A stretch of DNA of 64,000 nucleotides from an uncultured Flavobacteriaceae bacterium (GTDB lineage: Bacteria > Bacteroidota > Bacteroidia > Flavobacteriales > Flavobacteriaceae): NCBI GenBank assembly GCA_947493175.1, contig CANLQD010000004.1:124001-188000 (forward strand), read 5' to 3'. Under the pieces are notes generated by a model that did no database searches, had not been told where the DNA came from, and was given only the letters and a program-made list of their open reading frames with translations. The position numbers and the translations under genes were made by a program. Of this stretch, positions 53,709 through 56,003 are shown piece by piece; within the stretch, counting starts at the first letter, position 1, and each line of letters begins with the position of its first letter.

Positions 53709-54869
53709 TTGAAACCAACAGCTATCAATACACACTTCGATTATATCATCATAGGAGCTGGTGCGGCAGGACTCATGCTCGCCGATGCTATGAGGAAGGA
53801 TGTCTTTTTTTCAAAAAAGAAAATACTGCTTTTAGATAGGGATGCCAAAAAAGCAAACGATCGTACCTGGTGTTTTTGGGAAAAGGGGGAAGGTATGTTC
53901 GACGATATCGTTCATACGACCTGGCCCTATATTTTTTTTGGGGGGAAAGCCTTCTCCAAGAAGTTTGATATTGTTCCTTATCGGTACAAAATGGTTCGCG
54001 GTATTGATTTTTACAAGACGTATTTAGATCGTATAGCATTATACCCCAATATTCATTTTAACCAAGAAGAGGTCGTCAATGTATTGGATGATGGCACCTT
54101 GGTTACGGTCGAAACCAGCATAAATAACTACACGGCAAAAAAGGTTTTAAACAGCATCTTTGATTATCGGATGGCGACGAAGCAGACGACTTATCCTGTA
54201 TTACAACAGCATTTTGTAGGATGGTACGTGAAAACAACAAAAGCGGTTTTTGAACCGGATCAAGCTACTTATATGGACTTTTCGATCCCTCAAAAGGGAA
54301 ATACTCGTTTTATGTACGTGCTCCCATTCTCAGAAACCGAGGCCTTGGTCGAATATACTTTGTTCAGCAAAGACTTGCTGCCCTCCGAGGAATATGAAAT
54401 AGCGTTAAAAGCATACCTGAAAAATGAGCTGGGATGTAGCAGTTATGAAATAACCGATACGGAAAAGGGAAGTATTCCCATGACCTGCTATGATTTTCAA
54501 GAACACCATAGCCGCAATATCCGCTACATTGGTACAGCAGGGGGCTGGGCAAAGCCCAGTACGGGCTACACATTTATGAGCACTTCAAAAAAAATACCTG
54601 GACTGGTCGATTTTATAAAGACGGGAAAGGATTTTCGAAAACTCCGATTCAAAAATAGATTTTGGTATTATGACCTACTTTTATTAGACATATTGAGCGG
54701 TCATAATCATTTAGGGCAAGCAATTTTTGAGAGTTTGTTCAAGAATCGCTCTCCGCAATTGATATTCAAGTTCTTGGATGAACAAACGAGTTTTCTAGAA
54801 GATCTCCGTTTCATTTCGGGCCCTCGGAGCATGCCATTCATAAAGGCTATTTTTAAGAGACTGTTTTAG
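53709..54869 (+). CDS. crtY: Lycopene cyclase (CrtY-type)
   Basis: A 386-residue FAD/NAD-binding flavoprotein of the lycopene cyclase family. The dinucleotide motif is FDYIIIGAGAAGLMLADAM near the N-terminus, followed by LLLDRDAKKANDRTWCFWEKGEG, the cyclase signature. Later motifs GSIPMTCYDFQ, IRYIGTAGGWAKPSTGYTF fit CrtY. It closes both ends of lycopene to give beta-carotene, the precursor of zeaxanthin-type pigments. Start is TTG at 53709. Its stop codon TAG is formed by the left junction of the MITE-like element (54866-55031), so the original end may have been different. Confidence 0.93.
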   Translation: MKPTAINTHFDYIIIGAGAAGLMLADAMRKDVFFSKKKILLLDRDAKKANDRTWCFWEKGEGMFDDIVHTTWPYIFFGGKAFSKKFDIVPYRYKMVRGIDFYKTYLDRIALYPNIHFNQEEVVNVLDDGTLVTVETSINNYTAKKVLNSIFDYRMATKQTTYPVLQQHFVGWYVKTTKAVFEPDQATYMDFSIPQKGNTRFMYVLPFSETEALVEYTLFSKDLLPSEEYEIALKAYLKNELGCSSYEITDTEKGSIPMTCYDFQEHHSRNIRYIGTAGGWAKPSTGYTFMSTSKKIPGLVDFIKTGKDFRKLRFKNRFWYYDLLLLDILSGHNHLGQAIFESLFKNRSPQLIFKFLDEQTSFLEDLRFISGPRSMPFIKAIFKRLF

Positions 54870-55028
54870 AGCCTGTTTAGGAATTTGTCAATCGTTTTGT
54901 TAGGTCTCTTTTTTCGCATTTTTTCGTTATAATCTTAAACCTTAGCGATGGCTATGCTTTAAAATTATGCCTCAAACTGCATCAAAAACAACCGCTAGCA
55001 ATTCCACTACAAATTCCTAAACAGGCTC
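54869..55028. mobile_element. MITE-like element, 160 bp, perfect terminal inverted repeats
   Basis: GAGCCTGTTTAGGAATTTGT at 54869-54888 is repeated exactly in inverted form at 55009-55028. Adding the flanking A/T pair makes 21 bp of identity. TTA (54866-54868) and TTA (55029-55031) flank the element as a possible 3-bp target duplication, the size seen with IS5-group (IS1031-like) insertions. The interior has no gene. It lies between convergent crtY and polyprenyl synthetase genes and contributes bases to both stop codons. Confidence 0.7.
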
Positions 55029-56003
55029 TTAGACCTTCCGGCGCATTAAATTTTCTCCGAATAGTTGCAGTAAGGCCTTTTTTTCTTTGGAAATTTTTAG
55101 GTGGTTCAGAACTTCAAAAGCCCGCTCCGTGTAATCGGCGATGGCCTCTTTGGTGCTTTTGGCTGCACCGCTGGCCTCAAAAATCTCCTTAATAGAATAA
55201 ATTTTGTCTGCCGGGTTACTGGGTTGAATCGAAAAAAGATGCTCCAGTTCTCGCTGTTGTTCCGGGGTTCCCAATTCCAAGGATTTTAAATAGAGGTACG
55301 TTTTTTTATTCTCGATAATATCACCGCCCACTTGTTTTCCAAAGGTCTCTGGGTTTCCAAAAGCATCCAAATAATCATCTTTTAACTGAAATGCGATTCC
55401 CAAGTTGCGTCCGAATTGATAGATACCATCTTGATCGGTAAGCGAGGCCTTTGCAATGATGGCTCCCATTTTTAATGCGGCACCTACCAACACTGCGGTT
55501 TTGTATTCGATCATTTTTAGGTATTCGGGAATGGTTACATCATCCCGTGTTTCGAAATCGACGTCGTACTGTTGTCCTTCACACACCTGAATAGCCGTTT
55601 TGCTGAACAATTGTGCCAAACTACGAAATAAGGTCCCTTCATAGTTTTCGAACAACTGATACGCATTGATCAGCATTGCGTCTCCCGATAATATTCCCGT
55701 GTTTATATCCCATTTTTCATGTACGGTGGGGTTACCCCGTCTTAATGGGGCGTCGTCCATAATGTCGTCATGAACCAGCGAAAAATTGTGGAACACTTCG
55801 ATCGCCAATGCCGCATCTAACGCTTTTTGATAATCGGTCCCAAATACTTCCGTTGCCATTAGGGTCAATACGGGTCTAAGGCGTTTTCCACCCAATTCTA
55901 GTATATAGATAATGGGCTCGTAGAGGTTTATAGGTTCCTTGGTTTGGATTTTCGAGTTGAGATACGTGATGAAGGCATCTCGGTAGTAATCTATAGAATG
56001 CAT
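55029..56003 (-). CDS. Polyprenyl synthetase (geranylgeranyl/octaprenyl diphosphate synthase type)
   Basis: The start is taken at MHSIDYYRDAFITYL (56003), giving 324 residues, the usual length. The enzyme chains isopentenyl diphosphate units. The first Asp-rich motif is VHDDIMDDAPLRRG and the second is FQLKDDYLDAFG, both DDxxD type; GGKRLRPVLTLMA and DTGILSGDAML-like NTGILSGDAMLI are also present. Its product length is not decided; it could feed carotenoids or quinone side chains. Its TAA stop is the TTA duplication of the MITE-like element. Confidence 0.93.
   Translation of the reverse strand: MHSIDYYRDAFITYLNSKIQTKEPINLYEPIIYILELGGKRLRPVLTLMATEVFGTDYQKALDAALAIEVFHNFSLVHDDIMDDAPLRRGNPTVHEKWDINTGILSGDAMLINAYQLFENYEGTLFRSLAQLFSKTAIQVCEGQQYDVDFETRDDVTIPEYLKMIEYKTAVLVGAALKMGAIIAKASLTDQDGIYQFGRNLGIAFQLKDDYLDAFGNPETFGKQVGGDIIENKKTYLYLKSLELGTPEQQRELEHLFSIQPSNPADKIYSIKEIFEASGAAKSTKEAIADYTERAFEVLNHLKISKEKKALLQLFGENLMRRKV

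Follow-up and report, generated by a model that had tools for sequence, protein, structure and literature searches.

Members of a MITE family are usually expected to keep their ends in common while the middle drifts. Within the Bacteroidota, MITEs with IS5-type ends have been described in Porphyromonas gingivalis: ISPg4 (IS5 family) and MITE464 both end in GAGACTGTTGCA, and the elements of the MITE464/BrickBuilt group and their ISPg1/ISPg4 (IS5) relatives have common ends and an unlike remainder (PMC4596501). The interiors of MITE464 and BrickBuilt are direct repeats, and the pattern described for these elements is the opposite of the one reported below. MITECca01 of Cardinium (Bacteroidota) is likewise an abundant, mostly intergenic MITE, but it is about 240 bp long, has IS982-type ends and is reported absent from other Cardinium strains (PMC9769881). 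REP/BIME and TIRYT-associated repeats resemble the present elements as intergenic imperfect palindromes that are possibly transcribed; REP/BIME sequences are 20-40 bp long, carry an unpaired GTAG or CGTC tag and are linked to Y1 transposases (PMC3733652), a description that elements of about 162 bp do not fit. PMC12542641 concerns other MITEs. The element analyzed here is like IS5-derived MITEs in being short and gene-free, in having terminal inverted repeats (TIRs) and a 3-bp target duplication (TSD), and in ends that resemble those of full-length ISs; it is unlike them in that its interior is conserved and common to elements with dissimilar ends.

The element occupies positions 54869-55028 of the window, i.e. 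the whole 64-kb stretch of DNA that was analyzed. It lies exactly between crtY (lycopene cyclase, PF05834; 53709-54869, plus strand) and a polyprenyl synthetase gene (PF00348; 55029-56021, minus strand), as the first-pass annotation had placed it. Its TIRs (GAGCCTGTTTAGGAATTTGT, plus strand at 54869-54888 and minus strand at 55009-55028) are perfect over 20 nt, or 21 nt when a base of the TSD is included, in line with the 20-21 bp given earlier. They form the sole perfect 20-nt inverted repeat in the window (arm starts 40-400 bases apart), and a TIR search of the window allowing 3 mismatches matched the two MITE ends only, with 0.01 matches expected. The target TTA is duplicated at 54866-54868 and 55029-55031, again in agreement with the earlier reading. 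The element, which was assigned to end class A, is 160 bp long and has zero coding capacity; its TIRs, 3-bp TWA duplication, dispersed copies and empty sites in relatives identify it as a MITE, and similar-ended IS5-family ISs occur elsewhere. A conserved core hairpin is predicted at 54902-54995 on the minus strand (model R1, 102.3 bits; the match is reported on the plus strand because the model was built so), with its apex at 54940-54957, also on the minus strand (CCTTAGCGATGGCTATGC on the plus strand; wide-scan pattern CCGTAGCTANGGCTATGC).

Other copies are present in the same genome. The R1 search listed 17 distinct core places there, the window element included, although it counted 20 matches, among which there may be opposite-strand matches. 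A DNA search revealed five further near-full-length copies, 72-92% identical, besides fragments, and matches to the MITE DNA were found in 6 of 60 genomes, the window's genome included. Target duplication was assessed in 98 elements that belong to class A or B and measure 150-215 bp. Identical 3-bp flanks were present in 69 of them (67 being TAA or TTA) and differing flanks in 21, while 8 were dropped for an unclear end motif. Long flanks were available for 61 of the 69 (59 TAA or TTA), and the other 8, all TTA or TAA, lay on short contigs. In end classes C, D, E, F and J the duplications were identified by visual inspection. Derivatives of 43, 57 and 78 bp (L008, G000:C7:62603; L012, G000:C5:279104; and L023, G000:C3:87600, respectively) have class A-like ends, with the core mostly or wholly gone. 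A separate observation concerns genome G001, which bears an unusually heavy load of the class B end: when up to 3 mismatches were allowed, 141 matches were counted in the forward and 159 in the reverse direction, compared with 2 and 0 for a reversed-pattern control.

The explanation that we favour as a whole, with a probability of about 0.75, is that an IS5-mobilized MITE entered a TTAG site and left both neighbouring proteins unchanged, and that it carries a hairpin module selected for its fold and likely serving the element. The MITE, a non-autonomous transposon, would have been moved in trans by an IS5-family transposase, since ISBf6-like and ISPg4 ends are both similar to its own, and it inserted into a TTAG where the stops of two convergent genes overlapped. 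Its interior would be a module of about 90 nt, central in palindromes of about 162 bp, that persists under differing ends, travels with several transposon lineages and is selected as a single strand, either RNA or DNA. The core most likely serves the element, as a transcribed RNA or an extruded ssDNA hairpin that may aid persistence or movement; our leaning is to rank such a function first and a host-side 3′-UTR effect second.

The central hairpin of about 90 nt is common to palindromic elements of about 162 bp in scattered Bacteroidota. R1, a covariance model of 94 central positions, matched 20 of 119 genomes, the window's genome included, with 1 to at least 35 matches each (up to 35 candidates were scored per genome). 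The exact 22-base apex pattern matched 70 stretches, which by accession prefix represent 31 of the 84,980 species genomes scanned, against approximately 0.03 expected chance matches. Judged by their titles, these sources, apart from one Micavibrio MAG, belong to Flavobacteriaceae, other Flavobacteriales, Saprospiraceae, Bacteroidales, Flammeovirgaceae and unplaced Bacteroidetes. The core family is wide yet patchy and is absent from most genomes searched. Comparison of 4227 Rfam covariance models with window positions 53-57 kb gave no match up to E 1, and the same models produced five matches, all under the gathering score, on 8 loci of other end classes. Among the titles and abstract openings retrieved from PMC open text none described the core, and the core string occurred in no text; a 2024 survey of prokaryotic MITEs (PMC11602168) may list the family. 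One core element with its own end type (L144, JALSJP010000005.1) was seen in an alphaproteobacterial Micavibrio MAG and represents either horizontal transfer or a contaminating contig.

Application of R1 to 92 and 70 sources yielded 223 matches, which were reduced to 176 after removal of opposite-strand duplicates and to 174 after removal of identical ones. Nine end classes were assigned automatically among the 174 elements (B 65, A 34, J 10, C 8, D 5, E 3, F 2, G 2 and H 1), by an end finder that clipped or mislabelled some ends (L099, labelled B, proved to be D on inspection; L287, labelled C, is B-like). The single-element classes I (L137) and K (L115, SZUA-72) were left out of the nine. 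A further 35 elements have TIRs without a class, and 9 lack a TIR, 6 of these being tentatively labelled. Example ends are GAGNCTGTTT (A), TACCANTT (B), CTAGTGTAANGATT (C), TACTCATGACACATG (D), AGTAGTCGGACACAT (E), AGACTTTATTC (F), AGGCATTGT (G), ATATAGCAAAGCTC (H) and GAACTCNTTTAAAC (J). In the window's genome, 10 of the 17 core places were assigned to class A and 3 to class B (L233, L235, L238), and 4 that were left unassigned look class A-like by eye. When 13 representatives were compared in different-class pairs only, the first 25 nt were 38% identical, the same as after shuffling (38%), whereas the central 44 nt were 73% identical (39% shuffled). Element length varies little, with a median of 163 bp and 98 of the 130 assigned elements measuring 158-168 bp. 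Several longer elements carry a nested GC-rich palindrome; in L128, L132, L138, L142, L237, L253 and L254 such small palindromes (e.g. CCCCGGTCAAGCCGGGG) are nested near the core apex and the element is approximately 15-28 bp longer.

Folded as RNA, both strands of the window element are far more stable than shuffles (z -8.5 plus, -9.2 minus), and for positions 54866-55031 the minus strand is the better folder (-63.2 vs -53.2 kcal/mol). The same strand folds lower in 54 of 54 representatives and, by a mean of 12-13 kcal/mol, in all 121 of the TIR-bearing elements of 155-175 bp among the 174, statistics that overstate significance because related elements share ancestry and hence are not independent. 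An alignment of 64 diverse cores gave a covariation score of 0.525, compared with 0.174 for shuffled data and at most 0.184 when pairing partners were slid by 1-3 columns. Standard pairs filled 91.1% of the pair cells (69.8% shuffled), and changes on both sides were present in 242 cells (90 shuffled). On the favoured strand, the outer helix (columns 18-25 with 93-100) contains 55 G.U/U.G cells and 10 A.C/C.A cells, or 28 and 7, respectively, without the richest pair, 18-100. Over whole elements read on one fixed strand, G.T exceeded A.C in 42 of 54 representatives, the reverse was true of 8, and 4 were tied; these counts, too, come from elements of shared ancestry. Two mismatches next to the apex persist, namely G.G in 55 of 64 cores and A.C in 46 of 64 (A-T in 14). 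On the opposite strand this A.C reads as G.U, so that the apex taken alone runs counter to the strand preference. Together, compensatory change, retained mismatches and the one-strand G.U excess indicate selection on a folded single strand (RNA or DNA).

Template switching can homogenize palindromes and likewise generate paired changes. On this basis the core could have been kept solely because a single MITE lineage was inherited and spread horizontally, its ends tracking changing helpers and its paired changes being template-switch correction of a quasipalindrome; we regard this as possible, though rather improbable. The near-constant length across end types does suggest a single lineage over repeated capture. 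Also in favour of this reading is one insertion, located between hemA (TIGR01035) and hemC (TIGR00212) in three genomes (G015, G026 and Hyunsoonleella ulvae), in which the terminal bases differ and yet pair (ATACTG/CAGTAT, ATTCCC/GGGAAT, ATTCTC/GAGAAT). G015 and G026 represent different genera, and both neighbour genes are 83-90% identical among the three genomes. Correction, however, ought to erase mismatches, and the G.G and A.C next to the apex persist; neither these kept mismatches nor the excess of G.T over A.C on one fixed strand is explained by template-switch correction. A centre that is conserved while the ends stand at the shuffled level also argues against it. In the three hemA-hemC loci (L086, L076 and L124), a further detail is that the predicted TTG start of hemC in L086 (1483) lies within the element (1466-1627). 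A supposed case of ends exchanged in place, L133 (Maribacter halichondriae, class A) and L121 (G001, class J), was rejected: the gene pair is the same but the positions are different, so the two are separate insertions.

A search for a parent IS with the same ends, as suggested in the first-pass annotation, revealed similar ends on IS5-family ISs of other Bacteroidota and no intact IS of this kind in the window's genome. That genome contains two transposases matching PF01609, with different or unrecognizable ends, no match to PF13340 or PF13359 (PF13340 had none in 10 genomes), and one decayed fragment of ISBf6-like type. The PF13359 search identified an IS5-family (ISBf6-like) transposase gene in G001, the last codons of which run into TGAACTCATTTAAACTTTTT (other strand), a class J end. 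Of 38 genomes, 8 (among them that of the query) contain relatives of this transposase, and its closest named relative in a plasmid collection is ISBf6 (57.5% identical). ISs of about 900-911 bp with class J-type ends were distinguished in G007 and an Allomuricauda MAG. In G064 a transposase gene is followed by the class A-like GAACCTGTTTAAAAATAG, only that end being seen. The IS5 model NF033580 scored above cut-off for two ISBf6-like proteins and below it for the truncated L161.

The ISBf6-like ISs (about 900-940 bp) resemble the MITE in their TIRs, GAA[C/G]CTGTTTAGGA.. or GAA[CG]T[CG]ATTTAAAC.., and in apparent 3-bp duplications read by eye; unlike the MITE, they encode a transposase, have hardly any non-coding room and carry A as the third base instead of the MITE's G. 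Examples of their ends are GAACCTGTTTAGGATTTTA (Adhaeribacter), GAACCTGTTTAGGGTTTTT (Pontibacter) and GAAGCTGTTTAAGAATAGG (Bernardetia); the Adhaeribacter end agrees with the window's GAGCCTGTTTAGGA in 13 of 14 bases. The ISPg4 end GAGACTGTTGCA (PMC4596501) is close to the class A variant GAGACTGTTT. The IS ends match class A in part only, and the transposase searches revealed no parent for end types B, C, D, E, F, G or H. None of the 18 transposase loci examined showed a core pattern. Since the IS ends are similar and the core pattern is missing from these loci, the ends of classes A and J point to IS5-family ISs as their probable source, and the core appears not to be derived from those ISs. 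With odds that we would place a little short of even, the hairpin may be a transferable module (RNA or ssDNA) that rides on several transposase lineages, is selected for its fold and makes its carrier MITEs succeed, e.g. via a conserved host protein.

The hairpin might instead act for the host, as a 3′-UTR structure, an RNA stabilizer or an insulator between adjacent genes. We consider this unlikely, although some features of gene context agree with it. Among the 156 elements whose flanks were long enough, none is enclosed by an ORF of at least 90 aa in the present sequence, but 5 of 61 reconstructed insertion sites fall in a predicted ORF. The distance from a gene's 3′ end to an element is 6 nt or less in 30 of 156 cases, compared with 6 of 154 for 5′ ends; nevertheless, the TSD overlaps a stop codon at 11 of 61 reconstructed sites, and TAA/TTA sites of the same non-coding DNA would lead one to expect 6.9, so the overlap is near chance. 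The window element is the only one of these 61 whose TSD overlaps two stops. The idea that the elements target stop codons was dropped after this controlled test, and no targeting is claimed. The favoured strand runs with both neighbours in 57 elements and against both in 35 (p = 0.028), 32 elements being placed between convergent genes, 31 between divergent genes and 1 undetermined (n = 156), so the orientation bias relative to genes is slight. For the window element the favoured strand corresponds to the synthetase mRNA, and no terminator-like site was found. Vertical retention between hemA and hemC in three genomes favours a host role, yet the favoured strand there is antisense to the genes, and the filtered R1 search left 99 of 119 genomes without a core match.

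Palindromes of the REP/BIME type, which depend on a tyrosine (Y1) transposase, would share the palindromic, intergenic and multi-copy character of these elements and the GTAG of their apex, and RAYT genes may have flanking long TIRs (PMC3733652), but here GTAG lies within a paired stem, the elements measure about 162 bp with a 3-bp duplication, and at the 30 Y1 loci inspected, out of 39 matches, the gene was never seen between paired ends of class A, B or J, which makes this origin highly improbable.

The TAG stop of crtY (54867-54869) is made up of the TA of the TSD and the first G of the element, and the TAA stop of the synthetase is the complement of 55029-55031; in both respects the earlier annotation was correct. 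In-silico removal of the element and one TTA gave TTTTAGACC, in which both stops stay: the rejoined frames read ...CTG TTT TAG ACC... for crtY and ...GTC TAA for the synthetase, the stops overlapping in TTAG. Because the joined flanks keep both, the two stops already existed in this overlap before insertion. The site was compared in 9 other genomes of the same genus in which crtY was located. Tail-to-tail overlapping stops without the element are present in 6 of these 9 congeners (G002, G003, G005, G006, G007 and G008), which thus hold the empty site. Neither of the two outcomes named in the first-pass annotation as refuting its reading, an element fixed in place in close relatives or a lack of further copies, was therefore observed. 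In the other three the synthetase stop lies 31 nt (G009) or 326 nt (G001) beyond the first base of the crtY stop, or the synthetase is absent from the stretch examined (G004). The CrtY protein ends in RLF in 7 of the 9, in RIF in G005 and in RLL in G009; the six empty-site congeners accordingly have RLF in five cases and RIF in G005, and their synthetases end in NLMRRKV, NLMQRNV (three), NLMRRKA or NLMRREV. The first-pass suggestion that insertion may have reset both C-termini, prompted by present stops that both touch the element, can practically be discarded, given that the joined flanks retain both stops and that six congeners have the same stop arrangement and similar C-termini without the element. 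The MITE instead entered the overlapping stops of two convergent genes and left both C-termini unchanged, as the duplicated triplet itself forms part of both stops.

A 3-bp TWA duplication can in this way hide an insertion into overlapping stops from both proteins. A conserved middle with compensated base pairing, combined with variable ends over wide distances, is the reverse of the usual MITE pattern. The core family makes the function of a MITE interior directly testable, and it provides a new family of structured elements to annotate in Bacteroidota genomes.
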